Shown here: positions 9,616-48,556 of the stretch, in pieces
How the letters are laid out: every line of letters begins with the position of its first letter
Position numbering within the stretch: the stretch's first letter is position 1
Assembly: GCA_024516155.1 (NCBI GenBank)
Contig: JAJJXM010000068.1
Location: 244,295-308,294, forward strand
Direction of reading: 5' to 3'
Source of the DNA: Pyronema omphalodes
Taxonomy: Eukaryota; Ascomycota; Pezizomycetes; Pezizales; Pyronemataceae
DNA length: 64,000 nucleotides
Position numbers and translations under genes: made by a program
The notes under the pieces: generated by a model
Told to the model about the DNA's origin: nothing
Databases searched by the model: none
The model's input: only the letters and a program-made list of their open reading frames with translations

Positions 9616-11027
9616 TGTGAACCTGGGCACAGTCCTAACTATGCAGAGGCTTTTCGGTTGTATCTCGAGTTCTTCGTTCTTGATGTAGACAAACACTTCG
9701 TTCCCAAGAACTAACAGACACTTCGTTCCCAAGAACTAATGGAGCTTGTTTCCAAAGATAAAGCTAGGAAGAGAATTAATCGATCACAGGCAGAATGAAT
9801 TTAATGTTGTCTTCAGAGGTTTTCGTTGGTGTAGATTTGGTATCGTCGCGTAGAGGATCCATCGCTGATAATTCAGGAGACAGAGGGAAGACATAGGGTC
9901 TTTTATAGACTTTAATCTACAAATTCGCCCAGCCTTCCTTAGCGAACGAATTGCCAAACTGAGCTTAACAGATAACACATGGGTTACAGCTGTGACGCAT
10001 TTGCTGAGGCTTGCATCATGCTCAGCGCGCAATTAAATTAATTGCTCACTTGCATAATGCCCGCCCTGGTCAGATTAATCCTGGAAATAGCTCACCGTAC
10101 TACCACACCTTCCAATGAGGTGCTGGGGTTATGAGTTACACCGGAGGGTAACTCCGTCTGACTGCATCATGCATGAACTCTTGTGAAAATGATGCATGAG
10201 TCATTTATCGTATGGGTCGCGCCATCATGGATCTCCCTAGAGAATCTCGATTGCAAGTAGAGGTCACTGACATCATAAGGCATCCTGATGCCCTACCGGG
10301 GTGGATCACTCCATCACATTACTGTTTGATGTCATATGTGCCCCACCTGCGCGCACTTGCGCGCAGCCACACCCTGCTGTGGATGCAAACGCCGTCTTGT
10401 TCTAAGTTGGCATCTCTACGCCCAAGGACGCATCATATCAGTTTCAGCAAACAGGTTTCCTGAGTGGAGTTCCCTGCTGAACGTCGTCTCATGCTGATGC
10501 ACTGTTGACCCTTGTCCTGCATTCCACTCCTGTTTGCTGACTAGACTCTGCCTTATCTCTTCGCCCAACTGTTCACCCGACTCGTCACACCGGATGACAC
10601 CCTTGCGCCGCATCTGCATCTTCTTCGAATCTCCTGTTGCTATGCAGCCCCTCTCGTAGGCGTGTATTGCCGAATACTCTTCAGGTGTAAGGAGGTGACC
10701 TATCGTCGTCTTCTTCCTTCTCCATCAGCATCGTTCGTAGTTGTCTCAAGGGTAAGTCGACACCCTTGAGGTATGTGTTCCTTCACCTTCTCCGTGCTGC
10801 ATCCTCCCAAACTGACAGTGAATGATAGTTTCAAGGCCTCGGGCCGGGATCCCTGTGATGTCCTATTGGAAAGTCACCAATCACGTGACGTGGCTAGCCG
10901 GAGCTCCTCTGGGGGGTTCTGGCCCGGGATACTAACATAATTATTCATTCTCCTGTCAAGTTTGCCATATTCTCCATAGCGTTATATATGATACCTATTG
11001 TATTCTCGCACATTATAGGGTGTGACA
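9616..11027 (-). mobile_element. Solo LTR, family A, copy A1
   Basis: A 1412-bp LTR, TGTGAACCTGGG...GGGTGTGACA in plus orientation, flanked by perfect 5-bp target duplications CCTGC (9611-9615 and 11028-11032). Orientation is taken from a TATA box (TATAAAAG on the minus strand, about 9899-9906). It is an inverted copy of A2 and A3. It contains the perfect hairpin CTGCGCGCA-CT-TGCGCGCAG (10347-10366). It holds no coding sequence; internal recombination left a single LTR inside the LINE. Confidence 0.92.
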
Positions 11028-12610
11028 CCTGCCCACCGCCGTGGCCGCCAGGTATTCCATGATCACTTTGGTAAGCCGATCGTCGGAAAGGATTTCCACC
11101 GCCTTCAGGCTTCCCCTCCGTCGCCGCGGCTTTCCTGTAGTTCTTTCCACCTCTTGAACGAGTACCTCGTACTCGCTTTGCCAGCTATCGCAGCCACCAA
11201 ACAGGTGACCCCGCGTTTGGCGTTCTCCGGAATCACACGACCAGCAGCGATCAGAGTCCCGTTTTTCAATGCCCAAGAGGTGCATGCCGATCAGCGCATG
11301 ACTGGAGGCAACCTGGAAGAACGTCGTGGCCCGGTGTTTCGGCACGGATTTCAGTCCGTCGCGGATTCCCCATTTCTTCCAGGGGCGGTAGGATGCGTCG
11401 AGGTTGGTGCGCTGGCGCACTCACTTAGCCGCAATCTCCTTGGGCAGCTCCCTCGCTGCGCGGTTGACATGCGCCAGCGATGTCCAGGGGAAGGGGGAGC
11501 AGGCGGGGTTTGCGCACCCGTGGAGGGGAGGGGCCAGGCAACGGTGACTCGTGCCTTGTTTTGCTGCCGGATCTGCGGCCCCGTTCTCCAGGATATCGCT
11601 GTGGCCTGGTACCCCCCGGAAGACCACTTCGATGCCAGTGAAGGTAGGGAGTTTTGGACTTTCGTCCCGGTTAGGCGTTGTAGGATCTGGCCACGGCCAG
11701 GCGCATCCGAGAGCAGCCGTTGCAGAGCGGCTTGGGCATCCGAAAGAATTGTAAGGAGCGGGGGGGGGGGGGGGGGTGGGGGGGGGCGAACAACCGAGTG
11801 GTGGTAGTTTTCCCAGTAGTCGCGCAGGGCCAGCAGGATGGCGTGGAGTTCTGCGTCATAAACCTCCGCATGTTGACCCACGCAGAAGGAGGAGGAGGTG
11901 AGTGTGCCCCGAATGTACTGGACAAGCCAGCACCGGCGGTGTCATCCATGGGGGATCCATCAGTTCAGATGCAGGCGGAGTCAAGGTTCCTCCAATGCCG
12001 AGCGCACTCTGTTGCCTCGTCCCTAGATGCGATAACAACGGTGCCTGGGAATTGCTAGGGAAGAGGAGGAAAAACTCTTTCAACGTGGTGGAAGCCTGAA
12101 CGGGTCGTCACGCGTTGGGTCAAGTGACGGATGATGTCTGCGGTCGGGGACAGGGGGCTGGAGCCAGGGGGGGCCGGGCGAGTGAGCAATTGTGCTCTGA
12201 AGCGGGCTTGGAACCGTGCACAAGGGACTCCGCTGGTCGCGTCGCGCTTTCTGCTGCCAGAAAGCCGAGCGGGATGGTTCCGAAGCAGCCGGTAGTGGCC
12301 TGTGCCTGCTTGTTGAGGATTAATTGAAGGCGGGACAGGTGACCAGCGTCTCGAGAGAGGAGGCGGCGGGCAGCGTTAATTTCAATACCATAAGTCGCGA
12401 CGGATTGCACGACTGCTTGCGGCAGATTCCCGGTGCTGCCCGCTGGGAGCCCGTATTGCCTGCAGAGCCGTGCAATTCGTGCTTGTTGCCGGGGGGCTCG
12501 GGAGAGCCATTTCTGCCTGTGCTGATTGAAGGTGAGTTTGCCGTCCAGCCTATATCCTAACCAGCGAACTGCAGTCTCAGAGTAACGAATGGAGTGAGCC
12601 CCCACCATTT
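11028..12610 (-). pseudogene. LINE: end of RT, RNase H and CCHC domain
   Basis: Minus strand. From 12610 the frame reads SIRYSETAVRWLGYRLDG, the Tad1/I-type motif after the RT palm, then the RT thumb (...LILNKQAQATTGCFGT). RNase H follows at about 11950-11420: the TDGSPMDDTAGAG start, then AEVYDAELHAILLALRDY and LTILSDAQAALQRLL with catalytic E and D. VPGHSDILENGAAD lies in another frame. The end carries CWSC...RGHLFGGC, a CX2CX9HX4C knuckle. At least one frameshift and a TGA just before the RNase H start show that it is dead. A 27-base G-run (11760-11786) falls in a proline stretch of RNase H. Confidence 0.85.
11760..11786 (+). repeat. Poly-G tract (G17-T-G9)
   Basis: A long uninterrupted G run inside the LINE RNase H region. 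It could form G-quadruplex structure. Its exact length is prone to sequencing error, which may itself cause the apparent frameshift in that domain. Confidence 0.9.
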
Positions 12611-14019
12611 TGTCACACCCTAAAATGTGTGAGGATAGAATTGGTATCATATATAACGCAATGGAGAATATGGCAAACTCGACAGAGAATGAATAGTCAG
12701 TTAGTATCCCGGGCCGGAACCCCCAGATGAGCTCCGACAAGCCACGTCACGTGATTCATGACTTTCCGATAGGACCTCACGAGGATCCCGGCCCGAGGCG
12801 TCGCAACTATTATTCAATGTCAGTTTGGGAGGATTCAGAAGAGAAGAGATTTTGGAACACTTACCTCATGGGTGTCGACTTACCCTTGAGCAACTACGAA
12901 CGACGCTGATGGAGAACAAAGACGAAGACGAAAGGACACCTCCTTATACTTGAGGAGTGTTCGGAAGTTCACGGCTACAAAGGGGTCTGCATCGGAAGAG
13001 AGTTCCAAGGATGTGCAGAGCGGTGCGAAGAAATCATCCGGTGTTACTTAGTTGGGTGAATGGTCAGCCAGGAAGATAAGGCAGAGTCTAGTCGGCAAAC
13101 AGGAGTGGGGCTATGGACAAGGGTCAAGATTGCTAAGGCATGAGACGACGTCCATAAGCATGCAACCCTCTCAAGGAAACTGTTTGGTGGAACCGATATG
13201 ACGCGCCCTTAGGCTATTGACTACCAACAAAGGAACAGCTCGGCGTTTGCATCCACACCAGGGTGTGGCTGCGCCCAAGTGCGCGCAGGTGGAGCCATAA
13301 TGACATCACACAAGAATGTGTCGGAGTAATGCACTCCGGTAGGGCATGGATGCCTTATGATGTCAGAATCCTCCATTCGCAATCGAGATTCTCTAGTGAG
13401 ATCTATAATAGCACGACTCACAAGATAAATGACTCACATGTTATTTGTCAGAGGAGTTCATGCATTATGCAGTCAAGGGGAGTTGCCCTCCCATATGACT
13501 CATAACCCTGACACCTGATTGGAAGGTGTGGTAGTACAGAGAGGAATGTCAAGGATTAGTCTGACGATAGCAAGCATCATGCAAGCAAGTAATCAATATG
13601 ATTACGCACTTCGTATGATGCAATCTATCAGCAGATGCGTCTCAGAAATGACTCTTGTCTTATCTCCTAGGCTCAGTTTGGAAGTTGGTTCCCTAGGAAG
13701 TCTGGGCGAACTTGTGGGCGAAAGTCTATAAAAGAGCCTTTGTCTTCCCTCTCTCTCCTCTAGCATCAACCATTTGATCCTCTACGCGACGATACCTATG
13801 ATCACCAACGAATACCTCCGAAGACAACCCTTAAGTTTATTCCGCCTGTGATCGATTAATTCTCTTCCTAGCTTTATCTTTGGATAAGCTCTATTAGTTC
13901 TTGGCAACGAAGTGTCTGTCTGTTCTTGGGGACGAAGTGTCTGTCAACACTGAGAACGAAGCACTAGAGATACAATCGGATAAAGCCTCTGCATAGTCGA
14001 AGCTGTGCCCAGGTTCACA
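12611..14019 (+). mobile_element. Solo LTR, family A, copy A2
   Basis: TGTCACACCC...GGTTCACA, 1409 bp, inverted relative to A1. TATAAAAG at about 13728-13735 gives plus orientation. It interrupts the LINE between the RT palm and SIRYSETAVRW. Unlike A1 and A3, the flanking 5-mers differ (CATTT and GTTAC), so either the flanks have mutated or it arose by recombination between two A insertions. No coding sequence. Confidence 0.85.
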
Positions 14020-18183: not shown

Positions 18184-18995
18184 TATCAGAATCCGTATCC
18201 ACAGTTACTAACGACAGGCAGCGCGGGGGTTTCGGCGGCGAGGAGGGCGGCAGGGGGTTAGGTAAGGCTGGTAAGTTGGGAATGTGCAAGGGTTTGGCTG
18301 GGAAATCACAGGTGAGTTTCGAAGAGATGGGGATATCACAAGGGAACTTTTTGTAGATAGGATTGTAGTAAATAGAAACTTGATTGCGTGAAGAAATAAA
18401 CTACATACAAATTTCCTCCTCCTATACTTGCTCCTGCATGACTCGTGACTCAGCATTCTCCGCCTGCGGAGAATGCCCTCAATGCTAACCGCCGTGATAA
18501 CTACATACATGACCAACATCCCCCACCATTTGCCAACCGCCGTAATTCCAAATAAGAAAACAAGGGAACAATACATACCAAGGATAATTAACCGCCGTGA
18601 TTCCGAATAATAATAGCAAAGAAAGAGTACATACCAAAAGAGATAACTACCTGGCTAACCGCCGTGATTCCAAATAACAAAGAAAGAGTACATACCAAAA
18701 GAGATAACTACCTGGCTAACCGCCGTGATTCCAAATAATAAAGAAAGAGTACATACCAAAAGAGATAAGTAAAAGATTCCAACATTTTCCTAGCCGCCGT
18801 GATACCTAAAATAAATTCAAATAATAAATGACTCCGAACATATGAAAATCCCCGGCAAGGGGCCCAGCCCCTTGCCCTAACCCTATCCCTATCACTTCAT
18901 GATGGCGTAGCAGGTTGCTAGGGTGATGGCAACCACCCATAGCCCTGCGGTGGTGACGGCGGGGGCCAGGAGCATGTCACGGGAGCGTTGTGACA
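18184..18995 (-). repeat. C 3' LTR
   Basis: 812 bp. Contains about four ~60-bp tandem units (GCCGTGATTCCAAATAA...GAGATAACTACCTGGCTAA, 18527-18770). Its first ~100 bp (minus strand, 18995-18892) also encode the C-terminus of ORF3. Confidence 0.92.
18527..18770. repeat. ~60-bp tandem repeats inside LTR C (3' copy)
   Basis: Units share ACCGCCGTGATTCCAAATAA and AAAGAGTACATACC. The same array is present in the 5' LTR at about 25452-25697. Confidence 0.85.
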
Positions 18996-19959
18996 TAAGC
19001 CCCCCCCTCCAGACCGAGACTCCGGCGAGGCCGTAGGCAGTCCCCAACGCGGGCCTCCGGATGGGGGACCGTCCCCGATACTGCCTTCCCCAACGTCGGC
19101 GACGTACGACGTCCTGGGTGATGTCCTCGAGGACATAAGGCGATATTTGCTCTTGTTGGTGTCCCAAGGGGGGCGCCGTTATTTGTTCTTGTTGGTGCCC
19201 TAAGGAGAACGGGGGTATTTGATCTTGTTGGTGCCCTGAGGCGGGGGGCTCCGGGGGATCCGAACAAGGGGCGGATGTCAGGTCGTTGGTTGGTCGGCAG
19301 TCGATGATGGGGAGATGCTGTTCCGGCTCCGCTGTCTGATAGAAAGACAGGTTGATCGCTACCTTCTCGTGGTCCGAGGGTCCGGTCATCATAATCACTG
19401 GGAGTTGGAGTCGGATCGTATGGATGGTGGGGTCCTCCGATTCCAGTTTGCGGGGACGGGGTGGTTCGTTTTCCTGATTTTCCGTAGGGACGGGAGGTTC
19501 CTTTCCTGTCTCGGGCTCGTCCTTGCAGGGTGGTATCGTTGCCTGGGTCTCTGTGGGGGGTTTCCATCCCCTGATGCCGCATCTCTGGTCGTGTCAGTCT
19601 TTGTTGACCAGGAATTTGCACACATTGCAGAGTCTCTTTCCTTTCTGCCATGCCTTGCAGGCTTTTTGCGGGTCCATCCTTCGATGTCGGATCACCCATT
19701 CTAACTCGGGGTCATGTAACTGCCCGCAGCTACATGATTTTTTCATGCGTGCCGCAATTGCTTGCGCCACCGCTGGGAAATGATTGTTGTCTAGTTTCGA
19801 TTGGAGGTGAATGGAGCAGGAGTCGTTGTTGCAGAACGACCAGTGTAGTTCTGCGTGCGGGATCATGGGGTGGGGGGATTTCTTTTCTGCCGGGGGAGTA
19901 GGGGTTCGGTACCAGCCCAAAGAGGACGGGGGGTCCTCGGAGTTCGTTCTATCGTCCAT
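18892..19959 (-). pseudogene. C ORF3: Cys/His-rich protein with C-terminal membrane segment (one nonsense codon)
   Basis: Starts at the ATG that overlaps the pol stop (TAATG; ATG at 19959) in the -1 phase relative to pol. The N-terminal domain has WSFCNNDSCSIHLQSK, then CSCGQLHDPELEWVIR, then KACKAWQKGKRLC-x2-C-KFLVN. This matches the ORF3 of element D residue for residue at all Cys/His positions. A TGA at 19596-19594 (Gly in D) interrupts one otherwise continuous 355-codon frame. A proline-rich middle with GHQQEQI repeats follows. The last ~34 codons, including the hydrophobic DMLLAPAVTTAGLWVVAITLA, lie inside the LTR. No known family is recognised. It occupies the env position, but no signal peptide or fusion motif is seen. 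Confidence 0.8.
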
Positions 19960-22900
19960 TACAGCTGAGGGGCAGGTTCATTAGGGTACTTGTGGTGGAA
20001 TTGGGTGATGGCGTCGGGGGAGTTTTGGAAATTGTCGGCGGGGTACCAGGTCGTATCGGGGTTGTGGAAACCAGTCCACTTGACTCGATATTGGATCTGT
20101 CCCCGGTGGCGTCGAGAATCCAATATCTCTTCAACTTCCCACTCTTCCTCGTCGTCGAGGATAATCGGTAGCGGAGGGGGCTGAACATGGCCTGGGATGG
20201 TGGTCGAAGTAGGTTGAGACGGTTCTAGAAGGGAGATGTGAAATACTGGATGGATCTTTGCGTTTGGGGGGAGGTCCAGCTTATAAGCTCGCAACCCTAC
20301 CTTAGACAAGATAGTGTAGGGGCCCAATAGCTTGTAATCGAGCTTGCTGGAGGGTCGGGTGGTTTTCACATTCTTCCTCTTCAGCCAGACCCGATCTCCC
20401 ACTCGAAGGACCGGATCCGGGTGTCGATGCCGGTTCGCCTGTTCTGCATGAGCAGTCTGGGCATAGTGGACCTCTGCCCTCAGATCCTCGTGAAGTCGGT
20501 TGAGGGCGCCAACATATTTGGAGACCTCGGGGTTTCCTTCCGCGACTTCACCCAGCGGTTGGGTAAAACGGGGATGATATCCGTAATTTGCGAAGAAGGG
20601 GGACACCTTGGTCGTTCCTGAGCGTGAGTTGTTGTAGCAGAACTCCGCCATAGGAAGGAGTTGGTTCCAATTGTTCTGTTGGTAGTTACAATACGCCCTG
20701 AGGTATTGTTCGAGGATCGCATTGACCCTCTCTGTCTGTCCGTCGGACTCTGGGTGAAACGCCGTACTCAGGTTCCTCGAGGTCCCCATTGCCTCCATAA
20801 CCCTCTTCCAGCACTGAGAGGTGAATAGGGACCCCCGATCCGAGATGATGCTGCTGGGGAGTCCGTGGGCCCGTACCACATTTGTGAGGAAACCCGTCCG
20901 CAAGTGCCCTGGGCCCCATAGTGTCTTTACATGCTACGAAGTGCGCCATCTTCGTGAAGCGGTCCACAATCACCCATATCGTATTCATTCCCCCATCTCC
21001 GGAAGACCTGTGATAAAATCCATGGAGATGGATTCCCATGGTCTTTCTGGAATCTGTAATGGTCGTAAGAGACCGAAGGGGGCGTGCTTAATGGGCTTGA
21101 TACGTTTACAGGTATCACAGTAGTCGACATATCGAGTCACATACTGTCGTTGTTGTGGCCAATAAAAACTTCGGCTGACCAACTCCAAGGTTCTTGCCCT
21201 TCCCGGATGCCCCACGGCTTGGGAGTCGTGATGTTGTCGTGAAATTTGTAACCTCAGGTCGTCGTCATCAGGGACCCATATCAATCCCTCGTATAGGAGT
21301 AACCCATCCTTTTCCTCGCATAACCCCAAGGGAACCCTATTGTCTCGGGTTATCCCTTCCCGAAGTTTGCGGATTGCCTCCTGAAGTTCTGTATCGGTTT
21401 CCGTCTTCTTCCGAATTTTGGTGATGAGGGGGGTGTCCGGGGTGAGTGTGATGAGGGGGGTTTCCGGGGTGAGTGTTATCAATTGTGTCCCGTTCACATG
21501 AAAGACTTCCTGGGGAAGGAGGACTCGGCTTCGATTCTGCCGGTGCTTCATCTCCCCTTCCCAGGGAGAGTCTCCTGACTCTCGGGACAATATGTCGGGT
21601 TTTCCTGCCAACTTCCCCGCACGATACGTGATCGTGAAGTCATGGTTAGCCAGTTGTTCCGCCCATCGGGCTTGTCGGAGGTTGAGGTCCCTCTTCGTTT
21701 GCCAATACTCTAGGTTTTTATGGTCTGACAGTATCCGGATACTGTGTTTTGTCGATTTGCAGTATGTCGACCATTTGTCTAATGCTTCCACTATTGCCAG
21801 GAGCTCCTTATCGTGGATGTCATAATTGAGCTCCGCTTCTTTTAATTTTCTTGAAAAATAGGCAAGGGGGTGCAGTACGTTGGAGTCAGTCGGGTTGTGA
21901 GCAGACTGCCCCGATGGCATAGTCTGAGGCGTCTGTTTCCAGGGTGAGTGGCTGATCCGGGTCGAAATGTTGCAGGATCGGTTGGGCATATCATTGCCGT
22001 TTTGAGTTGCTCAAAGGCCCGTTGTGTCTCGTCGTTCCATTCCCAGGGTACCTGTTTCTTCGTCAATCGTGTCTAATGGCGTGGTGATCTTGCTGAAATC
22101 CCGGATGAATCGACGGTAGAAATTGGCGAACCCCAGGAAACTTTGGACTCCCTTCACATTCACCGGTTCCTTCCATTCCTTAACCGCCCTAATTTTCTCG
22201 GGGTCCATCTGCAACCCTGTGGGGGAGATGATGTATCCCAGATATTCCGTCTTTTTCGTGTGGAATTCACATTTCGAGGGTTTCAGGGTCAGTCCTACGT
22301 CCCTTAACCTCTCCAGGACCATGCGGACGTGTCTCCGATGCTCCACCATATTATCCGAGTAAATCAATATGTCGTCGAGATAGGCGATGCAGAAGATGTC
22401 GAGGTAATCACTTAAGACTTCGTTCATCCATCGTTGAAACGAAGCTGGAGCATTTGTCAAGCCAAACGGCATCACCAAATACTCGTATAGACCGTACTTG
22501 GTACGGAACGCAGTTTTCCATTCATCTCCTGTGGCTATTCGGAGGTTATGGTATGCATCTCGCACATCCAACTTGGTATAGATCTTGGCGTTGGAAAGTC
22601 TATCCAACGCTTCCCCTATCAGCGGGAGTGGGGTGCGATCTTTGATTGTGATTTCGTTGAGTCGTCGGTAGTCGACGCATAATCGTAAGGTACCATCCTT
22701 TTTCTTAACGAAATGGATTGGGGCTCCCGCTGGAGACGTCGACCGTCGGACCCAACCCCTTCTTTCATTCTCTTCCAAGTAATCCCTCAATACTCGCAGG
22801 CCCTTCCTCATCGAGGGCTCGCAGGGGTTCGAACGGCGGAATCTTTCCTTCCATCAAGGGGATCCGGTGGTCATGATGTCGGTGCGGAGGCAACCCTACC

Positions 22901-25108: not shown

Positions 25109-25920
25109 TATCAGAATCCGTATCCACGGTTACTGACGACGGGCAGCGCGGGGGTTTCGGCGGCGAGGAGGGCGGCGGCGGGTTAGGTAAGGCTGGTAAG
25201 TTGGGAATGGGCAAGGGTTTGGCTGGGAAATCACAGGTGAGTTTCGGAGAGATGGGCATATCACAAGGGAACTTTTTGTAGATAGGATTGTAGTAAATAG
25301 AAACTTGATTGCGTGAAGAAATAAACTACATACAAAAGTCCTCCTCTTATACTTGCTCCTTCATGACTCGTGACTCAGCATTCTCCGCCTGCGGAGAATG
25401 CTCTCAATGCTAACCGCCGTGATAACTACATACATGACCAACATCCCCCACCATTTGCCAACCGCCGTAATTCCAAATAAGAAAACAAGGGAACAATACA
25501 TACCAAAGATAACTAACCGCCGTAATTCCAAATAATAATAACAAAGAAAGAGTACATACCAAAAGAGATAACTACCTGGCTAACCGCCGTGATTCCAAAT
25601 AACAAAGAAAGAGTACATACCAAAAGAGATAACTACCTGGCTAACCGCCGTGATTCCAAATAATAAAGAAAGAGTACATACCAAAAGAGATAAGTAAAAG
25701 ATTCCAACATTTTCCTAGCCGCCGTGATACCTAAAATAAATTCAAATAATAAATAACTCCGAACATATGAAAATGCCCGGCAAGGGGCCCAGCCCCTTGC
25801 CCTAACCCTATCCCTATCACTTCATGATGGCGTAGCAGGTTGCTAGGGTGATGGCAACCACCCATAGCCCTGCGGTGGTGACGGCGGAGGCCAGGAGCAT
25901 GTCACGGGAGCGTTGTGACA
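25109..25920 (-). repeat. C 5' LTR
   Basis: 812 bp, same length as the 3' LTR with about 20 differences, mostly transitions. Contains the predicted promoter (minus-strand TATAAG near 25350) and the self-primer 25305-25314. Confidence 0.92.
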
Positions 25921-30336: not shown

Positions 30337-30868
30337 TGTCACGGCACACGGCTGACGAGCCGTTGTGTTGTTGCGTCACCATTGTGTTGTCGTTGTTGTG
30401 GTTGACGACGTGCCGTTGTCTTGTCGTGTTGTGTTGTGTTGTCGTTGTGTTGTTGTGTGTGCCGTGCCGTTGTTGTTGATGGACTGACTGATGATGGATG
30501 ACGTACCATGAGCTGGAGAGCTGTGGCGTCGCAGGTGAAATGATGGAGAACGGAAGCTGTCATGTAGCGATGTTGGATGACGGCCCAGCAAGAGTGCTGG
30601 CCGCCCTTTGTACGTAAGGAGGCTTGCGTCCCCGTCGTTGAGTTCTCCATCGAACGTCTTGTGTCTTTCCCTTGTCCTTTAAATAAAGACTCCTCTTCTC
30701 AAACCTCATGTCATTCTTGTCCTTGTCCCTGTCCTTGTCTCGTGTGCCGTCCGTCTGTCGTGCACTTCGATCTTTGTCTTTCCGTTCCCATATCCCGGAA
30801 CCCGCCTAGTTCCCCCTGCTGGTAGTGTTCAGTGTGTCCTTCGAACGTCCGTTCCTAGTTCCCTGGCA
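30337..30868 (+). repeat. B2 5' LTR
   Basis: TGTCACGGCACACGGC...CCTGGCA. Self-primer ATCGAACGT at 30649-30657 is exactly complementary to ACGTTCGAT at 30871-30879, just after the LTR. Confidence 0.92.
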
Positions 30869-30904
30869 TTACGTTCGATCTAAATATTTCTTCGACCAAC
30901 ACGC

Positions 30905-31147
30905 ATGAACCCAACCGGTTCTGCTTGGACACATGCCTTGAAACAAGCCCTGGAGACTCATACACTAACCGAGACCTTCGGAATATCTGACCGATTCGCT
31001 GGCGCAGTCCGACGAGCCATCCGAAGAGCAGAAGATCACTGCTACCTTGTGGTCCGCTGGGAACTCCAGGATTATACTTACCAGGAGTACGTCCGTCACA
31101 CCATGCGACTTAAGCCGATCCTCCGAGCCCGCCAAGATGCACGTTAA
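30905..31147 (+). CDS. B2 ORF0 (80-aa leader protein)
   Basis: ATG 37 nt after the LTR. An 80-residue basic protein (MNPTGSAWTHALKQALE...ARQDAR) whose stop overlaps the gag ATG by 11 nt (ATGCACGTTAA, 31137-31147). Compared with B4 (51645-51887), most nucleotide changes are at third positions (for example CGA/AGA for Arg, TTC/TTT for Phe), suggesting past selection on the protein. No family recognised. It could be a missing N-terminal part of Gag reached by frameshifting, or a peptide that controls gag translation. Confidence 0.6.
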   Translation: MNPTGSAWTHALKQALETHTLTETFGISDRFAGAVRRAIRRAEDHCYLVVRWELQDYTYQEYVRHTMRLKPILRARQDAR

Positions 31148-32446
31148 AGTCATCGAGGAGGGGCATTGGCAGCAAATCGTCAACGCTGCTTCCATGACTC
31201 AGTTTCCAGACGGGCACGACCCGGTCACGTTCACTCAGCAGCTCGCTCAATCGATCCTAGACGCCCAAGATCATCCCACGGGCTACATATTAAACGACCT
31301 CACAGAGACCCCCGGCTCCCGCAACAGCACCCGAGTTTCCAGTCCTGTCGCCTCCCGCGCTCCGGAAGCCCCCACCCCTGCCCCCATTCCCCCCGTTGTT
31401 ATTCAGACTGGGTCCGTTGAGGTCTACACAAACGGCCCAGAGACAGCGCCGCGAACCGCCGCGCCCCTCACCACAGCCGCAGCCGCAGCTCCCGCCCCCG
31501 CTATCCTCGCGCCAGTCCCAAGACTCCCCCCCCGAGACCCCGAAATACTCTTGACCCCCGAGGAACAAGCAGACAAGACCAAAGATCAGTATTATGAGCG
31601 GGAGACCACCCGTCAGCGCACACTACTTAACGCGTTACTCGCCTCCCCCGGCATACGCGTTACCGGAGATGAAATTCTGGATCCACCAACCTTCGATGGG
31701 TCCAACAAGGAGGACCTCCGTCGTTTTGTTTCCTTGCTTCGTATGAAATCGGTGAGCGACGAATTACGCTTCCCAACCCCCCACAAGCGCATCTCTTATG
31801 CCATGGGCCGTCTCCGCGGACGCGCCCTTGATCAGATCCTTCCGTATATCAAGGATAATGGTAACAGCTGGGCCCTAACCGACGTCGAGGACGTCATTAA
31901 AATCATGCAGCGTACCTTTGGAGACCCGGACGAGCGCGCAACGGCTCGTTTCAAACTACAAAATCTCCAACAAAACAACCGCGAGTTCTCAGATTATTAT
32001 GCAGAGTTTTCCCGCCTGGTCGCTGAATTGGGCTGGGATGAAGCCGCTACCATGGACGCTCTACGGAATGGCCTATCCCTCGAGTTGCAACAATGCACGA
32101 ATTTGTCGAACAGTGCGAAAAATTGGACTCCCAGTTGAGAGCACTGAAGAATCTCCGCAAGCTGCGCACCAACCGCGGCCAAGTCAAACCCACTACCGCC
32201 GCCACTCCCACCACAAGCCGCCCCACCCCCGCTACCCAATCAACTACCGCCTCCTCTAACAAACAAACCCCTGCCCAAGGACCCCGTCGGAAACTATCAG
32301 CACAGGAACGCGCTACCCGCCTGTCAGAAGGACGTTGCCTCTACTGCGGTGGCCTCGGCCACATCGCAGCCTCGTGCCCCGCTAAGACTAATGTCAAAGT
32401 TGCAAGTGTTGAATTATTGGATAGTGAAGAAGATGTTTCAGGAAAA
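31137..32446 (+). pseudogene. B2 gag (frameshifted by a short deletion)
   Basis: Begins MHVKVIEEGHWQQIV; Pro/Ala-rich linker, then capsid-like region (DPPTFDGSNKEDLRRF, GDPDERATARFKLQN). A ~30-bp deletion near 32085, compared with B4, removes EKLVGAPP and shifts the frame. The second half (32093 on) carries the knuckle YCGGLGHIAASC. The slippery site is A GGA AAA (32440-32446), mutated at its first base, and the stop that normally follows has become CAA-like sequence. Confidence 0.88.
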
Positions 32447-36176: not shown

Positions 36177-36187
36177 CGGGGGGGTAC

Positions 36188-40688: not shown

Positions 40689-41435
40689 TGTCACGAACCG
40701 CTAGGGATATGCTTCTGGGAGGGATTGTAACCACAGCTGGGCTGTGGTTCGTGGGTGTGACGCTGGGGATGGCGTACGTCACAGTTAGGGTTTAAGCGAA
40801 GAGGTGGAGCTAGGGCTAGGCGAGAGGAGTTGGGGTTAAGCGAGGGACAAGGGGGTAAGTGCGGGGTGGAACGAGGAGGGTTTCCTCGAGGTTTGGAATA
40901 TGTTTTGCTTATGTGTTGTATTGTGTTTTGCTTATGTTTTGTATTATGTTTTGGTTATGTTTTGTATTATGTTTTGGTTTATGTTTGTATTGTGTTTTAG
41001 TTAGGTTTTGGGAGTCACGGTGGAGCGAAGGGTGTCTCATGATGGATGGAATATCTGCGGGTCAGATAAGTTGGGGAATCACATGAGCACAGGGACAAAG
41101 GTATATAAGGGGACATTTGTATTTCATTAGTCTAGTACGCAATCAATTATCTATTTACACAATCCTATCTACACACTGCAGTTCTATCATCTAAACCGTG
41201 ACCACAAACCCAGCCCATCCCAACATACTTACCCATCCCGAATACCCACCTATCCCCCCACCCAGATCCCCATCCGACGATTCTATCAGAGGCAACGCTG
41301 CAGGGACATCCTGTGTACAAGGTAAGTACTGCCTGAGCCCGTGACTAACTCACCTAGAAGTCCAGAGCCGAACCCGATTGCATAGCAATCCGACGGTTGT
41401 ATCGCCTGTCGGCCGTGTGTAGCCGGATTTTGACA
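40689..41435 (+). repeat. D 5' LTR
   Basis: 747 bp, TGTCACGAACCG...TTTTGACA. Has a T/G-rich repeated block (TATGTTTTGTATTATG, 40900-40990), a TATA box and the fold-back primer. Confidence 0.95.
41102..41109 (+). promoter_or_regulatory. TATA box of D
   Basis: TATATAAG, 35 nt upstream of ACGCAATCAA (41137), the predicted mRNA 5' end. The same box is at 48223-48230 in the 3' LTR. Confidence 0.75.
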
Positions 41436-41446
41436 TTTGATTGCGT
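41137..41446 (+). promoter_or_regulatory. D self-priming pair: primer 41137-41146, PBS 41437-41446
   Basis: ACGCAATCAA (41137-41146) is the exact reverse complement of TTGATTGCGT (41437-41446), which starts one nucleotide after the 5' LTR. With the mRNA starting near 41137, its first ~10 nt would fold back on the PBS, as in Tf1. Confidence 0.75.
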
Positions 41447-41528
41447 CCTCCGAACGACACCCGATACAACTAAGGAAGCACGAAGGGCTTCAACCACAAC
41501 TAAGAAAAAATAAGAAACAACCAATACC

Positions 41529-42611
41529 GTGGATCCGTTCCGATTGCAGGAGCTGAGCGAGGTTATCGAAAGAGAAGCCACCGGTCCAGCGAGCCCAGTA
41601 ACCCCCGAACACCGATCCCGCCCACAGACTCCGGATTCACCGGGACCAGCACAGATTCCCGAGGACATAGCCTCCATAATGGCCTCTCAACAGGGAACGA
41701 GCGGTATGACGCCACCCTCGGTCGTGATGACCCAGGAGCAGCTTCAACAACTGTTCCAACAACTCACCTATCGACCCTCTCCGACCAGTAATCCCAAGGT
41801 CGAGGATCCCGAACTCTATCACGGCGAGAGAACGAAGCTTCGGGCTTTCCTCACTCAGTGCGAGCTGAAGTTCAACTGTGAACCGAACAGGTTCGACAGT
41901 GATATTAAAAAGGTTAATTACGCCAGTTCGCGGTGCCGGGGAAATGCGTGGTCATGGATTGAACCCTCCATCGAGAGGGGGAGGAGCACGTACACCACCT
42001 GGGAGGCATTCAAGACTGCCGTCTCGAGAGCATTTGGAGAGGCGGATTCAAGGGAAGTAGCGAGGAGGAAATTCAAAAATGTCCGTCAGGGAAATCGGTC
42101 CGCCGCAGCGTATTGGGCCGAGTTCCAGAGAATCATCGCGGACCTGCGCTACAACGACGAAATCTACATTGATCTGTTCAGCGATGGACTTCATGTGGAC
42201 GTACAAAGGCAACTCGCCATCCTCGAGACCCGTCCGACGAAGATAATCGATTTCGCAAACAAAGCAATTGCATTGGACAACCGGCTGTTCAATTTCCGGA
42301 CCCTGCGAAACCGATTCAAACCCCAGTACCAGAATTTCCATCCGAGGAACGGCCACCAGGGATCGACCTTCTCGGAACCCGAGCCGATGGAACTGGATGC
42401 CACTCGGAGGGGCAGGCCTAGGGATAGGATCGAGGAAGAGAAACGACGAAAAAACAACGAGTGTTTCAACTGCGGGAAAACGGGCCACTATGCCGCCAAA
42501 TGCCCCCACAAGAAACCAATGGGGGAACGACGAACGTACCGGGCGGCAGAAGCCAACATCGACGAGGAACAAGTCGAAGAAAGAGCGGGAAAAGAGGATC
42601 CCCAGGAGTAA
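41529..42611 (+). CDS. D gag
   Basis: Structural Gag; forms the particle that packages the RNA. From the first ATG (41679, MASQQGTSGM...) it is 310 residues. Upstream the frame is open back to a TAA near 41508 and encodes a stretch conserved in C (RLQELSEVIEREATGPASPVTPE) with GTG (41529, context ACCGTGG) but no ATG. Capsid region: YHGERTKLRAFLTQCELKF, WSWIEPSIERG, RAFGEADSREVARRKFK, AYWAEFQRIIADLRYNDE. Zinc knuckle CFNCGKTGHYAAKC is at about 42460-42505. Ends TAA 42609-42611, overlapping pol in the -1 frame. The start codon is the open question. Confidence 0.9.
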   Translation: MDPFRLQELSEVIEREATGPASPVTPEHRSRPQTPDSPGPAQIPEDIASIMASQQGTSGMTPPSVVMTQEQLQQLFQQLTYRPSPTSNPKVEDPELYHGERTKLRAFLTQCELKFNCEPNRFDSDIKKVNYASSRCRGNAWSWIEPSIERGRSTYTTWEAFKTAVSRAFGEADSREVARRKFKNVRQGNRSAAAYWAEFQRIIADLRYNDEIYIDLFSDGLHVDVQRQLAILETRPTKIIDFANKAIALDNRLFNFRTLRNRFKPQYQNFHPRNGHQGSTFSEPEPMELDATRRGRPRDRIEEEKRRKNNECFNCGKTGHYAAKCPHKKPMGERRTYRAAEANIDEEQVEERAGKEDPQE

Positions 42612-42635
42612 AAAAACAAGGTGGACTTCTGGGGA
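42587..42635 (+). promoter_or_regulatory. -1 ribosomal frameshift signal of D
   Basis: Heptamer G GGA AAA (42587-42593) in gag phase, 5-nt spacer, perfect 7-bp stem TCCCCAG (42599-42605)/CTGGGGA (42629-42635). The gag stop lies inside the loop. The slip gives GKRGSPGVKKQGG... and continues into pol. Confidence 0.8.
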
Positions 42636-45600
42636 CGAAGAGTTCCGCCGAACCAGACAATCCGGAACCAGCCTACATGATATCGAGCGTAGGGCCATAC
42701 CGGCGAGATGAAAAGATCATATTGAAAGTAGTAATAAAAGGAAAAGATAATCGAGAACACACCACGACGGCCATGGTGGACTGTGGAGCGACGGAGAACT
42801 TCATCGATAAGGAATATGCGGAAAAGGTGGGGATTCCGTTGAAAAAGAAGGACGTCCCACGAAGGGTGTTGGCAGTGGACGGACGAGAGATAGCTAGTGG
42901 ACCAGTCACCCACGAAGCTATGGTAAGATTACAGATCAACAATCATCAGGAGGATATTCGGCTGCATTGTATCACGATTGGAAACTCACCTATCATTGTG
43001 GGACTTCCATGGCTCCGAACGCACAACCCCAGTATCGACTGGAACGAGGGAAGAGTTACGTTCGACTCGGCGCGTTGCGCTAAGAGGTGCGTAGGGACCT
43101 CGACCTCACCTCACGCGACCACGGTAACGGAAAACGACGCTATTCAGCGATATCGACTGGACACTGCGCAGGCCACAGCCAGGGCAGAAAGAATATGCGA
43201 AGCAAGTTGGGAAGAAAGGAAGGAAACCTGGGGAAGTAGAACGAGGAAAAAGGAACAAGAAGCGGCGCCGTGGCGAAGAAGGATCGGAAAGGACCAGGAA
43301 AGAGAGGGGGAAGAGGAGCAACAAGGAAGGGTCCAAGTCGGGGCACAAGATGATCTCCTTCGAAGGGAGTTCGAGGAGGACATGGGAAAGGACGAAGAAG
43401 AAGAGGAGCTACAAGGAACCTGGGAAGACGGACAAGGTGATCCTCTTCAAATACGGGTCGAGAAGGACCAGGAGGAGGAGGAACGAAAAGAGATCGAAGG
43501 TAGCGAACAAAACGATCCTTTTCGAATGCAGACTGAGGAGAAGGACGGGAAAAAGGAGGAATGGAAAGAGTCCTGGGATGCTGCACAAAACGATCCTTTT
43601 CGAATGCAGCCCGAGGGGAAAGAAGAAAAGGAGGAACGGAAACGGACCCGGGGAACTGCACAAAACGATCCTTTTCGAATGCAGCCCGAGGGGAAAGAAG
43701 GAAAGGAGGAACGGAAACGGACCCGGGGAACTGCACAGAACGACCCTTTTCGAATGCAGCCCGAGGAAGGGGAAGAAATAAAGGAGGAACGGAAACGGAT
43801 CCGGGATGGTGCAGAAAAGGATCCTTTTCGAATGCAGGCCGATGGAAACGAGGAAGATGGGGAAGACGAGGAGGAATCGGAAGGAAACTTTGACTGGATC
43901 CCTTACGCCGCCACGGGATCGCTACAGGATGAGCAGTATGGCTCCGTTCGGGAACCCGTATCCCAGGGTTCAGCCAAACAGCAGGAACCGACCCCGCGTT
44001 CGGCTGGTGACATTGTTCCGGTCGAATATCACGACTTCATGCATGTATTCGATAAGGAAGAAGTGTCGGGACGACCCCCAAACCGCCATCACGACCATCG
44101 GATTCCGTTGGTGAAGGGAGGGGTTCCACCATTCGAACCCCTTCGAGCATTGGACGAGGGAAGGTTGAAAACGTTAAGAGAATACTTGGACACGAGCCTG
44201 GAGAAGGGGTGGATACGCCGCTCGACATCACCGGCGGGGGCCCCGATTCATTTTGTGAAGAAGAAGGATGGCACACTAAGACTCTGTGTGGATTATCGGG
44301 GGCTTAACGAGATCACAGTGAAAGATAGAACACCTCTCCCGTTGATAGGGGAAGCGTTGGATCGACTATCCAACGCAAAGATATACACGAAACTCGATGT
44401 ACGGGACGCCTATCATAACCTGCGAATCGCAAAGGGGGACGAATGGAAGACCGCTTTTCGGACGAAATACGGTCTTTTTGAATATTTGGTCATGCCATTC
44501 GGTCTTACCAACGCTCCAGCATCCTTTCAGAGGTGGATGAACGAGGTCCTCAGCGACTATCTAGACATCTTCTGTCTGGCATACCTCGACGACATCCTCA
44601 TCTACTCGGATGATCTGCAGCAACACCAACAACATGTGAGAAAGGTTTTGGAACGGGTGGATAAGGTAAAGTTGAGGCTCAAGGCCTCAAAATGTGAATT
44701 TCACACCACGGAGACGGAGTACTTGGGATATATCATCTCACCAACGGGGATAAGGATGGATCCGGAGAAGGTAAGAGCAGTGGCAGAATGGAGGGAACCG
44801 ACAAACGTAAAGGGAATCCAGAGTTTCATAGGGTTCGCCAACTTCTATAGGAGGTTTATCCGGGATTTTAGCAAGATTACGGCGCCTCTTACAAAACTGA
44901 CGAGGAAGGATGTAACATGGAAATGGGACGACGCGGCTAAATCAGCATTCGAACAGCTGAAACGGGCAATGATTTCTGAACCTATCCTACGACATTTTGA
45001 CCCCACAAAACCCTTAACCCTGGAGACAGATGCGTCGGATTACGCCATCGGAGCAGTCTGCTCGCAGCCGGACGACCAAGGCATCCTACATCCCTTGGGA
45101 TATTTCTCGCGCAAACTGAAGGACCCGGAATTAAATTACGATATACACGATAAAGAACTCCTCGCCATAGTTGAAGGGCTAAATAAATGGGGTACCTACT
45201 GCAAGAATACTCGACACAAGATTACTATATTGACGGACCATAAAAATTTGGAATATTGGACTACAAAAAAAGACCTAAACCTACGGCAGGCAAGGTGGGC
45301 GGAAATGTTGGCGAATTACGACTTCGCAATAACGTATCGACCCGGCAAACTGGTGGGAAAGCCCGACATCCTATCGAGAGAATCAGGAGATTCTCCTTGG
45401 GAAGGGGAGCTGAAACACAGGCAGAACAGGGAACGAGTTCTTTTGCCGCCGCAGACCTTCTGGATCAACTCTGCCGAGGTCATGGAAATACAGGTCGACG
45501 AGGAATTGTTATGAGAAATCCAACAGAAAACAAGGGAGGATCAGATACAGGAGATATTAAGGAAATTACGAACTGGGGAGAAGATAGACCGGAAGGTGGC

Positions 45601-46972
45601 ATTGGGACTTTGCGAAGAACGAGAGGGGCTGTTGCTGTATGAGGGGTTGATATGGGTACCAGACGACCACGAGTTGCGGCTACGGCTCCTACATGACCAC
45701 CATGATGCACTCGTTGCGGGACACCCAGGGCGGGCGAGGACCTTGGAGCTAATCAGTAGGAATTATTATTGGCCTCAGCAACGCCAATATGTCAACCGAT
45801 ACGTAGACCACTGCGATACCTGCAAGAGGATTAAGCCAGTTAGGCACGCTCCTTTCGGGCTCCTGAAGCCCTTACAGCCACCATCGAGGCCGTGGGATTC
45901 GGTGTCCATGGATTTTATCACTGGACTGCCGTCAAGAGGAGGAAACAACGCCCTATGGGTGATTGTGGATCGGTTCACGAAGATGGCTCACTTCGTGGCC
46001 TGTGCGGATACGATGGGGCCGAAGGAACTGGCGGATGGATTCCTGAGGCATGTGGTCAGGGCCCACGGACTTCCTAACGATATCGTCTCCGACCGCGGGT
46101 CTCTATTCACCTCGACGTTTTGGAAGCGAGTGATGGGGGCAATGGGGACGTCAAGGAAGCTCAGCACCGCATCCCACCCCGAGACCGACGGACAGACCGA
46201 ACGCACGAACGCCACCCTCGAACAGTACCTGCGGGCGTACTGCAATTACCAGCAGGACGACTGGGAAAAGCTACTCCCAATGGCGGAGTTTTGCTATAAC
46301 AACACTCAATCCGAGACAACAAAGGTAACCCCCTTTTTCGCGAATTATGGGTATCATCCGCGGTTCGCACCCAGCCTGGGAAAAATAGAAGGAGGATTCC
46401 CGGAGGTGGCGGAATACGTCTCAGCTCTCACCAACCTCCACCGGGAACTACAGGCAGAAATCGGATATGCACAGGCTGCCCAGGCAGAACAGGCAAATCG
46501 GAAGAGACACCCGGATCCCGTACTCAGGGAGGGGGATAGGGTGTGGTTGCGGAGGAAAAACGTGAAGACAACTCGCCCATCCAGCAAGTTGGATTACAAG
46601 CTGATGGGACCATACACCATCCTCGAGCGAGTGGGGACAAGAGCGTATAAATTGGATCTCCCCGCCAGTGTGAAAATACACCCCGTATTCCACATCTCAT
46701 TGCTCGAGCTGGCTCAACCCACCCTTACACCGATCCCCGGGCACGTCCAACCTCCTCCCCCACCAATTGTTATTGAGGACGAAGAGGAATGGGAAGTGGA
46801 GGAGATAGTTGATTCCCGCTATCATCGAAACCGACTCCAGTATCGTGTACGTTGGACGGGATTCCCTGATCCCGACCGAACTTGGTACCCATCGGAGAAC
46901 TTCACGAATTCCCCCGACGCTATCCGACGATTTCACACAACCTACCCAAGAAAACCGGCCCCAAGGTTGTAA
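42593..46972 (+). CDS. D pol: PR-RT-RNase H-integrase-chromodomain (single TGA)
   Basis: 1460 codons in one frame, with a single interruption, TGA at 45512-45514 (EELL-stop-EIQQKTRED), probably a former CGA Arg. Order: protease VDCGATENFID (about 42777); an acidic repeat region (43500-43870); RT with [14 protein letters not shown] and [11 protein letters not shown] (about 44580); RNase [13 protein letters not shown]; integrase HHCC (GHPGRARTLE...CDTCKRIK, about 45718-45832) and core (SMDFITGL, VSDRGSLF, TDGQTERTN). A chromodomain follows at about 46785-46935 (EWEVEEIVDSRYHRNRLQYR), expected to guide integration to modified chromatin. The stop separates RT-RNase H from integrase, so this copy probably cannot make full Pol. 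Confidence 0.93.
43500..43870 (+). repeat. In-frame 75-78 bp tandem repeats in D pol
   Basis: Five clear units begin near 43513, 43591, 43666, 43740 and 43818 (the last is partial). Each encodes NDPFRMQPEGKE..KEERKRTRG-like peptides of 25-26 residues between protease and RT. They are strongly charged. C has an unrelated repeat at the same place. Confidence 0.9.
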
Positions 46973-46977
46973 GAACC

Positions 46978-47916
46978 ATGGCTAGCCCCATCAACCCCGA
47001 GAACGACCAACAATCCGGCGGCTGGTACCGCCAGGATGCCCCATCACCGACAACCACGTATCCCCCACACGATGCCCAACACTGGACCTTTTGTTACGAC
47101 GACTACTGCGCCACACATCGACAATCGAAAGAAAACTACAACTATTTTCCAACCGCTGGGCGGAAAGGAACCAACGAATGCAACTGCGGACGGACGCACG
47201 ATCCCGAGTTAGAAGCTGTGATCAGGAGGAAACATCTGGACGTTCGGAAGGCCTGTCGGGCCTGGCAGCGAGGGAAGAGGGTCTGCTACGACTGTGGGTT
47301 TCTGGTTAACATGGACGGCCATGAAGCCAGATGCGGCGCCACAGGGCCTGCCCGCTCCACGACAACTCCCGCTCCGACACCGGATGAACCGACCCCCGTC
47401 CCGGAGAAAGACCAGCAGCATCCCAACGGGGAACAGCCACCAACAGCACCCGAGCCGGCCTCGGAAACCTCGAGCGAGACTTTGATGGAGAAGAGGTACG
47501 TCCCTGTCTACCTCATGTCTCCGAACAGGGACCCCGAACGACTCGCAATAAACCTCTCTTTCTACGGACGACCCACTGGAAGGGAAGAGGTGCCACCGCC
47601 GACCCACACCCCACCGCCATTCGAGGGGTCCTCGTTGCCGGAGCACTCCAGCACTGGTTTCGGAGGAGACTCTCCCCGCCTCCAACGACTATCCGGCAGA
47701 TGCCGCCGCCAGGACCGCAATCGCCGTCGGCAGCGACAACCCCGACCTCGTCCCCATGGGGAACCTCAGACAAGCATCGTCGGAGTCTCGGCCTGGAGGG
47801 GGGAGCTACTGTCACGAACCGCTAGGGATATGCTTCTGGGAGGGATTGTAACCACAGCTGGGCTGTGGTTCGTGGGTGTGACGCTGGGGATGGCGTACGT
47901 CACAGTTAGGGTTTAA
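46978..47916 (+). CDS. D ORF3: Cys/His-rich protein with C-terminal membrane segment
   Basis: ATG (context ACCATGG) five nt after the pol stop; 312 residues, in the -1 phase relative to pol. Residues about 35-115 are a Cys/His domain: WTFCYDDYCATHRQSKENYN, then CNCGRTHDPELEAVIRR, then KACRAWQRGKRVCYDCGFLV and GHEARC. The Cys/His spacing matches C ORF3. The middle is Pro/Thr-rich, then [20 protein letters not shown], with a hydrophobic segment (IVTTAGLWFVGVTLGMAYV) and the stop inside the 3' LTR (from 47810). No signal peptide is evident; it looks like a tail-anchored protein. Position suggests env, but no homology to known envelope proteins is recognised. Intact in this young copy. Confidence 0.85.
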   Translation: MASPINPENDQQSGGWYRQDAPSPTTTYPPHDAQHWTFCYDDYCATHRQSKENYNYFPTAGRKGTNECNCGRTHDPELEAVIRRKHLDVRKACRAWQRGKRVCYDCGFLVNMDGHEARCGATGPARSTTTPAPTPDEPTPVPEKDQQHPNGEQPPTAPEPASETSSETLMEKRYVPVYLMSPNRDPERLAINLSFYGRPTGREEVPPPTHTPPPFEGSSLPEHSSTGFGGDSPRLQRLSGRCRRQDRNRRRQRQPRPRPHGEPQTSIVGVSAWRGELLSRTARDMLLGGIVTTAGLWFVGVTLGMAYVTVRV

Positions 47917-48556
47917 GCGAAGAGGTGGAGCTAGGGCTAGGCGAGAGGAGTTGGGGTTAAGCGAGGGACAAGGGGGTAAGTGCGGGGTGGAACGAGGAGG
48001 GTTTCCTCGAGGTTTGGAATATGTTTTGCTTATGTGTTGTATTGTGTTTTGCTTATGTTTTGTATTATGTTTTGGTTATGTTTTGTATTATGTTTTGGTT
48101 TATGTTTGTATTGTGTTTTAGTTAGGTTTTGGGAGTCACGGTGGAGCGAAGGGTGTCTCATGATGGATGGAATATCTGCGGGTCAGATAAGTTGGGGAAT
48201 CACATGAGCACAGGGACAAAGGTATATAAGGGGACATTTGTATTTCATTAGTCTAGTACGCAATCAATTATCTATTTACACAATCCTATCTACACACTGC
48301 AGTTCTATCATCTAAACCGTGACCACAAACCCAGCCCATCCCAACATACTTACCCATCCCGAATACCCACCTATCCCCCCACCCAGATCCCCATCCGACG
48401 ATTCTATCAGAGGCAACGCTGCAGGGACATCCTGTGTACAAGGTAAGTACTGCCTGAGCCCGTGACTAACTCACCTAGAAGTCCAGAGCCGAACCCGATT
48501 GCATAGCAATCCGACGGTTGTATCGCCTGTCGGCCGTGTGTAGCCGGATTTTGACA
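47810..48556 (+). repeat. D 3' LTR
   Basis: 747 bp, no difference seen from the 5' LTR. Its first 107 bp are also coding (ORF3). Confidence 0.95.

Follow-up and report, generated by a model that had tools for sequence, protein, structure and literature searches.

A third open reading frame running into the 3′ LTR is conserved among chromodomain Ty3/gypsy retrotransposons of Pyronema omphalodes

One group of chromodomain Ty3/gypsy long terminal repeat (LTR) retrotransposons in the fungus Pyronema omphalodes carries a third gene behind pol, designated here as open reading frame 3 (ORF3). It was characterized from two elements, C and D, in a stretch of 64,000 nucleotides (the window; contig C198:244295-308294 of a 60.8 Mb genome in 232 contigs). 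ORF3 is conserved in at least five families, is under selection against amino acid change, includes an invariant set of Cys and His residues, and overlaps the 3′ LTR. The gene and the selection on it are shown; the preferred reading built on them, to which a probability of about 0.5 is given, is that the product would be a tail-anchored zinc protein by which products of the element would be tethered to a membrane, and that it would be expressed by stop-restart translation. An ORF directly after the pol stop of both elements had been described in an earlier sequence-based note (the original prediction); the LTR-encoded C-terminus, the closeness of the ORF3 ATG to the pol stop, the invariant Cys/His set and the additional families are new to the present analysis.

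ORF3 of elements C and D

The coordinates of ORF3 in C (minus strand) and D (plus strand) were confirmed (Table 1), as was the single TGA in the otherwise open frame of C. In other copies with full coverage ORF3 is mostly open. Among the D rows covering residues 1-312 at 89% identity or more, 32 of 37 have no internal stop, and 28 of the 30 D copies fetched are open to codon 312. For the C type, 49 of 55 rows covering residues 1-349 at 91% identity or more are without an internal stop (manual count). The internal TGA of the window copy is a trait of a minority of C copies. When the genome was searched with the D ORF3, near full-length C-type matches were obtained with E-values of about 1e-51 to 1e-38, and by this measure the likeness between the C and D proteins is far beyond chance.

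Families and distribution

At least five ORF3 families (C to G) are present in the genome, with pairwise identities of 31-44%, except for 63% between F and G. Families E, F and G were read from one copy each (L053, L056 and L057). The D query matched at least 181 genomic stretches, the C-type query 118 and the E query 150; these sets overlap and count stretches rather than copies, many C copies appearing twice with the D query. A tblastn search of the window with the ORF3 proteins of the five families gave matches in the ORF3s of C and D and in the tail copies carried by their 5′ LTRs, and revealed no ORF3 in the other chromoviruses of the window. One ORF3-less element occupies 30337-36716; its 3′ LTR begins at about 36188, shortly after the end of the chromodomain frame at 36176. 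The integrases of C, D and E are 73-77% identical to one another and 46-53% identical to those of the ORF3-less window families A and B, which is consistent with ORF3 belonging to one chromovirus clade.

Three protein searches returned 13, 48 and 29 rows, whose weakest E-values (5e-9, 3e-36 and 9e-12) are far under the cut-offs of 10, 1 and 1; the ORF3 family is therefore sharply bounded. The 71 distinct proteins obtained are nearly all JGI records, taken as metagenomes, and one of them (P0009) is from Pyronema domesticum. No ORF3 relatives were confirmed among the viral and prokaryotic contigs searched. Three proteins (P0002, P0030 and P0033) are labelled "ribosomal protein L32"; P0002 matches L32p with 11 bits against a cut-off of 21.3, and the label looks like a misnomer.

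The linker of the C ORF3 contains a 36-bp tandem repeat (window 19144-19241) encoding a 12-residue unit with QQ[ED]QI, and the related proteins P0006 and P0009 have fewer units. The copy number of this repeat was considered as the cause of the difference between 349 and 355 codons among C copies, and was dropped on checking.

Selection on ORF3

The pooled ratio of nonsynonymous to synonymous divergence (dN/dS) is 0.31 for ORF3 over 30 D copies and 0.16 for the 3′ part of pol over 26 copies, four copies of low identity caused by indels having been dropped. By region, the pooled D ratio is 0.25 for residues 1-125, 0.05 for residues 176-200, 0.10 for the LTR-encoded part and 0.55-0.59 for the linkers. 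Pairs of D with three older relatives, which are less biased than the pooled best matches, gave 0.275 for L040 (bootstrap 0.18-0.42), 0.234 for L047 (0.16-0.37) and 0.306 for L037 (0.20-0.47). The ratio of 0.264 between D and C, a comparison suggested in the original prediction, comes with saturated dS (2.03) and a bootstrap range of 0-0.41; therefore, the case for selection rests on the nearer comparisons, all of which are D-type. Their ratios (0.23-0.31) are well below 1 and bear out the selected accessory protein proposed there, indicating that ORF3 is under purifying selection. The LTR-encoded part shows much synonymous and little amino acid change, with ratios of 0.05 against L040, 0.09 against L047 and, at saturated dS, 0.14 against C.

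Two sets of sequences were set aside. The pol regions of L040, L047 and L037, read straight, contain 12, 11 and 18 stops per 458 codons, and because of these stops their ratios (0.50, 0.31 and 0.41, above those of ORF3) are unusable as a yardstick. The diverged C copies L049, with an internal frameshift, and L050-L052, whose dN is inflated to 0.56-0.76 by starting in another frame, were not used for selection.

Polymorphism among D copies points in the same direction. In the Cys/His domain, variants shared between copies comprise 3 nonsynonymous and 12 synonymous changes, and private variants 22 and 7 (Fisher p 0.0009); the corresponding counts in pol are 1/32 shared and 54/30 private (p 2e-10). 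For the whole ORF3 the test gives p 0.035, and the linkers show no difference (p 0.69 and 0.48). Variants that survive transposition are purged of amino acid changes in the D domain, less so than in pol.

An alternative is that the frame arose by chance or is a relic, that recent amplification has kept it open, and that only overlapping cis elements, namely the polypurine tract and the LTR end, account for its conservation. Constraint of that kind is real at residues 263-277, fifteen codons in which the synonymous divergence (pS) between D and C drops to 0.16 from 0.70 in the whole ORF because the polypurine tract overlaps them, and the window copy of D is young, with identical LTRs. The Cys/His domain, however, lies at least about 450 nt upstream of the tract, combines high synonymous with low nonsynonymous divergence in the comparison of D with C, and is common to families that are mostly 31-44% identical. 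This alternative is extremely improbable. Some of the conservation taken in the original prediction as a sign of function, that of the WRGEL stretch, is at the same time conservation of the polypurine tract.

Cys/His domain and predicted structure

The Cys/His pattern described earlier for C and D was recovered, and was extended by alignments of eight proteins (A4) and of nine near full-length proteins (A5; families C to G and four others). Eight Cys and four His residues are invariant across the nine proteins: H31, H35, C39, C44, C68, C70, H74, C93, C103, C106, H115 and C119 in D numbering. A wider alignment of 25 proteins, which includes fragments and decayed members, has fewer invariant columns. 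The residues can be arranged into two putative zinc sites, one of C-x4-C with C-x-C-x3-H and the other a C-x2-C-x8-H-x3-C finger, so that the N-terminal domain is a putative zinc-binding domain. Among the 71 distinct proteins, many of them fragments, the finger is found in 42, W-x2-C-x4-C-x2-[HY] in 32, a hydrophobic end of at least 1.5 in 31, the tail motif in 26, and both end and motif in 24.

AlphaFold2 (AF2) predicted for the D protein a terminal helix at residues 280-311, with blocks from residue 281 at a predicted local distance difference test score (pLDDT) of 86-96, and a helix-helix-hairpin-helix at residues 76-119 with block pLDDT of 60-78. The hairpin-helix at residues 101-119 was predicted with moderate confidence in the domain-only run (pLDDT about 64-73). 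In the comparison with C2HC fingers, which have a CxxC hairpin and behind it a helix with H and C, the Cys/His set is invariant in 9/9 proteins, and the hairpin-helix is a prediction of AF2 only.

The domain had not been recognized in the original prediction, and among Pfam families none was seen to score above its cut-off with the ORF3 proteins; no sequence match was found among solved structures. The nearest family is WCCH (PF03716), which is listed for retrotransposons and geminiviruses. The C-type ORF3 reaches 17.5 bits against the curated cut-off of 22.4, and four of 12 family members scanned (alignment A1) match WCCH, the best with an E-value of 0.00033. Of the individual bit scores seen, the best lies below the cut-off, and ORF3 is at most a putative member of WCCH. 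A genome scan with the WCCH model gave no match, and was uninformative since the controls were silent too.

The resemblance to WCCH is one argument for an anti-silencing or host-counteracting protein, in which the zinc domain would bind a host silencing factor and the helix would just fix the place of work. ORF3 also evolves about three times faster than the 3′ part of pol (C-D dN 0.535 vs. 0.16), as host-interacting proteins often do. Against this, the WCCH score is under the cut-off, and the fastest parts are the linkers, while the Cys/His domain is constrained. Such a role is considered rather unlikely, and with that of a Gag cofactor (below) it is the main rival to a role at internal membranes, which is the first choice.

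The LTR-encoded C-terminus

The ORF3 frame crosses the polypurine tract and continues into the 3′ LTR; its last 35 codons in D and 34 in C are encoded by U3. The polypurine tract codes for W-R-G-E/G, and the TGTCA at the LTR start falls in [LM]-S. For families E, F and G, the border was examined with DNA queries starting 100 bases before the predicted LTR, for which an LTR-only match is expected to begin at base 101. A pair was counted when a full match and an LTR-only match starting at base 99-101 lay on the same strand 6.3-6.6 kb apart; this yielded 3 pairs for E, 9 for F and 4 for G. Other LTR-only matches are further off or alone, and a few start elsewhere (for example, at base 91 in E and 87 in F). 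Together with the anatomy of C and D, these pairs place the LTR border inside ORF3, as predicted, in all five families.

In 13/13 proteins examined, the hydropathy maximum is 1.49-2.33, in a 19-residue window ending 6-12 residues from the C-terminus. Eleven of these proteins retain their own N-terminus, and in none of them is it hydrophobic (best 19-residue mean within residues 1-33, -0.01); P0009 and P0011 are N-terminally incomplete and were left out of this check. By hydropathy prediction, ORF3 has the features of a tail-anchored protein: it lacks a signal peptide, and a hydrophobic helix lies in the last 30 residues or so.

The original prediction spoke of an ORF in the position of env. 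The position stands, and the small ORF3s with transmembrane helices in other elements have been called possibly env-like in the available part of one report (PMC5408684). A degenerate or miniature env gene would fit the location behind pol and the hydrophobic C-terminal helix. An env-like protein, however, is contradicted by the lack of a hydrophobic N-terminus in the 11 proteins (hydropathy only), by the lack of an env match in Pfam and of any match among solved structures, and by an N-terminal pattern resembling cytosolic zinc sites. This candidate was rejected for the absent signal peptide and the absent profile match, and is very improbable.

ORF3 could instead be a nucleic-acid chaperone or Gag cofactor, with the terminal helix serving assembly and not membrane anchoring. 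Its zinc-finger-like motif would suit such a protein, as would the stretches rich in Arg that precede the tail in C and D. Basicity, however, is not conserved (net charge, K+R minus D+E, from -12 to +6 among the 13 proteins), and the hydrophobic tail is present in every one of them. This role is judged unlikely, to a degree similar to that of the anti-silencing protein.

The pol/ORF3 junction

The start codon of ORF3 overlaps the upstream stop or lies close to it in all families read. The spacing from stop to ATG is -1 in C, +2 in F, +3 in G, +4 in L037/L038, +5 in D, where the pol stop TAA is at 46970-46972, and +11 in E. The exact UAAUG form is seen only in C, in which TAATG is present in 10/10 copies (nine fetched and the window copy); in D, TAA[AG]AACCATG is present in 30/30 copies. 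The relative frames of pol and ORF3 are of three kinds: C, D, E and F share one, G is in frame behind one stop, and L037/L038 have another. As the relative frames differ, the closeness of the ATG to the stop is kept and not the frame. This location of the ATG points to stop-restart translation: the ribosome probably terminates at the pol stop and restarts at the adjacent ATG, which would give a low yield of ORF3 per Gag-Pol.

If frameshifting or readthrough, and not restart, gave ORF3 as a fusion to Pol, this would be compatible with the frame common to C, D, E and F, and with G, whose ORF3 is in the pol frame behind one stop. No single shift, however, fits all three relative frames, which speak against frameshifting or readthrough as a general route, and in C the ORF3 frame is open only from about 20 nt before the ATG. 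Such a fusion is regarded as quite improbable. A splice site shared by the families for an ORF3 mRNA was also rejected; a good 5′ site is present in the leader of D and none in that of C. In the LTR of D, GTAAGT...CTAAC...CTAG (41322-41357 and 48443-48478) resembles a 5′ splice site or a very small intron.

Proposed role of ORF3

The preferred reading, a tail-anchored zinc protein, can be described as follows. The protein would begin with a zinc-binding domain, followed by a linker that varies and by a hydrophobic helix that ends within about a dozen residues of the C-terminus, the helix being encoded in C and D by the first 104-107 nt of U3. Reverse transcription would copy the anchor into both LTRs, and from the anatomy of the elements only the 3′ copy would be read in frame behind ORF3. 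The protein would most likely be inserted by its tail in an internal membrane, such as the endoplasmic reticulum/nuclear envelope, and its zinc domain would face the cytosol. There it may tether Gag particles, the RNA of the element or a host factor, aiding assembly or nuclear delivery; this is the weakest step. Fungal nuclei generally stay closed in mitosis. A more specific version is that of a docking protein of this chromovirus group, made from a third cistron by stop-restart, whose zinc domain would bind particles or RNA and whose LTR-written anchor would sit in the nuclear envelope, enabling particles to enter a nucleus that never opens. All of these steps together are unlikely to hold.

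Several observations weigh against the tail-anchored zinc protein and the selection invoked for it. The 30 D copies in the pooled estimate are the best protein matches to the query, which biases dN downward. The LTR-encoded part is little constrained in L037 (0.82), and in D it has no shared variants, so that the polymorphism test says nothing there; five C copies show no difference between shared and private variants (p = 1). At the polypurine tract and the LTR end, the cis elements themselves partly determine which residues are found. The AF2 models (mean pLDDT 48.8, and 62.2 for the domain only) are of low confidence outside the terminal helix, and Foldseek with the domain model found no solved fold at an E-value of 0.001 or below. 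Two of the 13 tails are borderline at 1.49 and 1.58, and a mid-protein stretch of P0003 reaches 1.48; the tail is not the sole hydrophobic stretch everywhere. The 5′ splice site in the D leader is consensus-like, and a spliced ORF3 mRNA is possible there.

Elements C and D and their surroundings

Both C and D belong to the chromodomain Ty3/gypsy elements; each is bounded by a pair of LTRs and flanked by a 5-bp target site duplication (TSD). The Pfam domain order in D pol is protease, reverse transcriptase (RT), RNase H, integrase, SH3_Tf2-1 and chromodomain; in C, pieces from RT to chromodomain were found, and the protease was not looked for separately. In Tf1-type self-priming, the 5′ end of the element transcript serves as primer and pairs with the sequence behind the 5′ LTR. 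In both the C and D families, a transcript-start-like site of the ACGCAATCAA type is complementary over 10 nt to the sequence after the 5′ LTR, which by analogy suggests putative self-priming of this type.

Table 1. Positions of ORF3 and associated features of elements C and D in the window.
Feature	Positions	Strand	Details
ORF3 of D	46978..47916	+	ATG 46978, 312 codons + stop
Cys/His domain of D ORF3, residues 31-122, two putative zinc sites	47068..47343	+	alignments A4, A5
Polypurine tract GGAGGGGGGAG inside D ORF3, just before 3′ LTR	47795..47805	+	
ORF3/3′ LTR (U3) overlap of D, predicted C-terminal membrane helix	47810..47916	+	AF2, hydropathy
ORF3 of C	18892..19959	-	ATG 19959; one internal TGA 19594-19596
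TAATG, pol stop/ORF3 start overlap of C	19957..19961	-	
Polypurine tract inside C ORF3	19000..19010	-	
ORF3/3′ LTR overlap of C	18892..18995	-	
Element D	40689-48556	+	two 747-bp LTRs, 100% identical
5′ LTR of D	40689..41435	+	100% identical to 3′ LTR; TSD GGCAG
ACGCAATCAA, likely transcript 5′ end/self-primer, complementary to primer-binding site	41137..41146	+	analogy with Tf1
TTTGATTGCGT, putative self-priming primer-binding site, directly after 5′ LTR of D	41436..41446	+	
gag of D	41679..42611	+	Retrotrans_gag, zinc knuckle
pol of D	42461..46972	+	protease to chromodomain; one in-frame stop 45512-45514
3′ LTR of D	47810..48556	+	LTR comparison
Element C	25920-18184	-	LTRs 97.4% identical
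5′ LTR of C	25109..25920	-	97.4% identical to 3′ LTR; TSD ATGGC
pol 3′ part of C, RT to chromodomain	19959..22811	-	three pieces, one frame
3′ LTR of C	18184..18995	-	LTR comparison

The in-frame stop in D pol lies between RNase H and integrase despite the identical LTRs, which mark a very recent insertion, and is absent from that position in 29 other D copies checked. D pol also contains a 75-bp tandem repeat of 4.4 copies between protease and RT (window 43507-43842). At the end of the window (63836-64000), perfect AGGGTT repeats represent the telomere, so that the window is a subtelomeric nest of retrotransposons. A large imperfect inverted repeat is located at 10011-13623, with a further copy near the telomere at 60954-62217; no Pfam domain was found in two ORFs tested.

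Significance and comparison with known systems

For fungal Ty3/gypsy elements, gag and pol are usually considered sufficient. That five or more families in a single genome retain a third gene, which has relatives in Pyronema and among JGI records, suggests that this group depends on more. The layout, in which a U3-encoded anchor would be read across the polypurine tract and the LTR end, is unusual, and one stretch of DNA thereby combines a protein with two cis elements and the LTR boundary. ORF3 offers a test of membrane use by fungal LTR retrotransposons and of stop-restart translation in LTR elements.

The coding regions of retroviral nef, sag and bel run into U3 of the 3′ LTR, and their products are made from spliced mRNA. 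ORF3 can be likened to them, as generally described, for the LTR overlap they have in common; Pfam gave no match. If the docking protein is real, it would be an accessory function of a retrotransposon parallel to these LTR-overlapping retroviral genes. Elements C and D are like other fungal chromoviruses, including the Tf1/sushi type, in the order protease-RT-RNase H-integrase-chromodomain, in SH3_Tf2-1 and in the putative self-priming site.

A third ORF in LTR elements is already known as a kind. A literature search, mostly at the level of titles and abstracts, recognized neither the ORF3 family nor a U3-encoded anchor nor stop-restart junctions of this sort. The available part of a survey of fungal chromoviruses finds one or two ORFs in most full-length elements, and a figure legend mentions an unidentified additional ORF, which may be an earlier sighting of ORF3 (PMC2864245). 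Unlike the surveyed elements, as far as they are described in that part, ORF3 here is a defined family crossing into the LTR. The ORF3s of bdelloid rotifer LTR retrotransposons are likewise third ORFs behind pol, some with transmembrane helices and Cys residues; in the accessible text they are described as env-like, GDSL esterase or exonuclease, whereas no Pfam match above cut-off was seen for the present ORF3 (PMC5408684). The antisense ORFs of Retand TRP28 are, like ORF3, additional coding sequence located behind pol and before the 3′ LTR, theirs with a putative DNA-binding domain, and differ, by the portion of the report available, in being antisense and in a plant non-chromovirus (PMC11963269). 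Overlapping UAAUG is one form of coupled termination-reinitiation, as in SART1, according to the part available of a further report (PMC5972666). The UAAUG of C is of this form, and the stop and start of the other families lie within 11 nt of each other; in D to G the start follows the stop, unlike the spaced formula AUGnxUGA given there, in which the start precedes it. The retrotransposon cases in that part of the report are non-LTR elements, whereas C to G are LTR elements.
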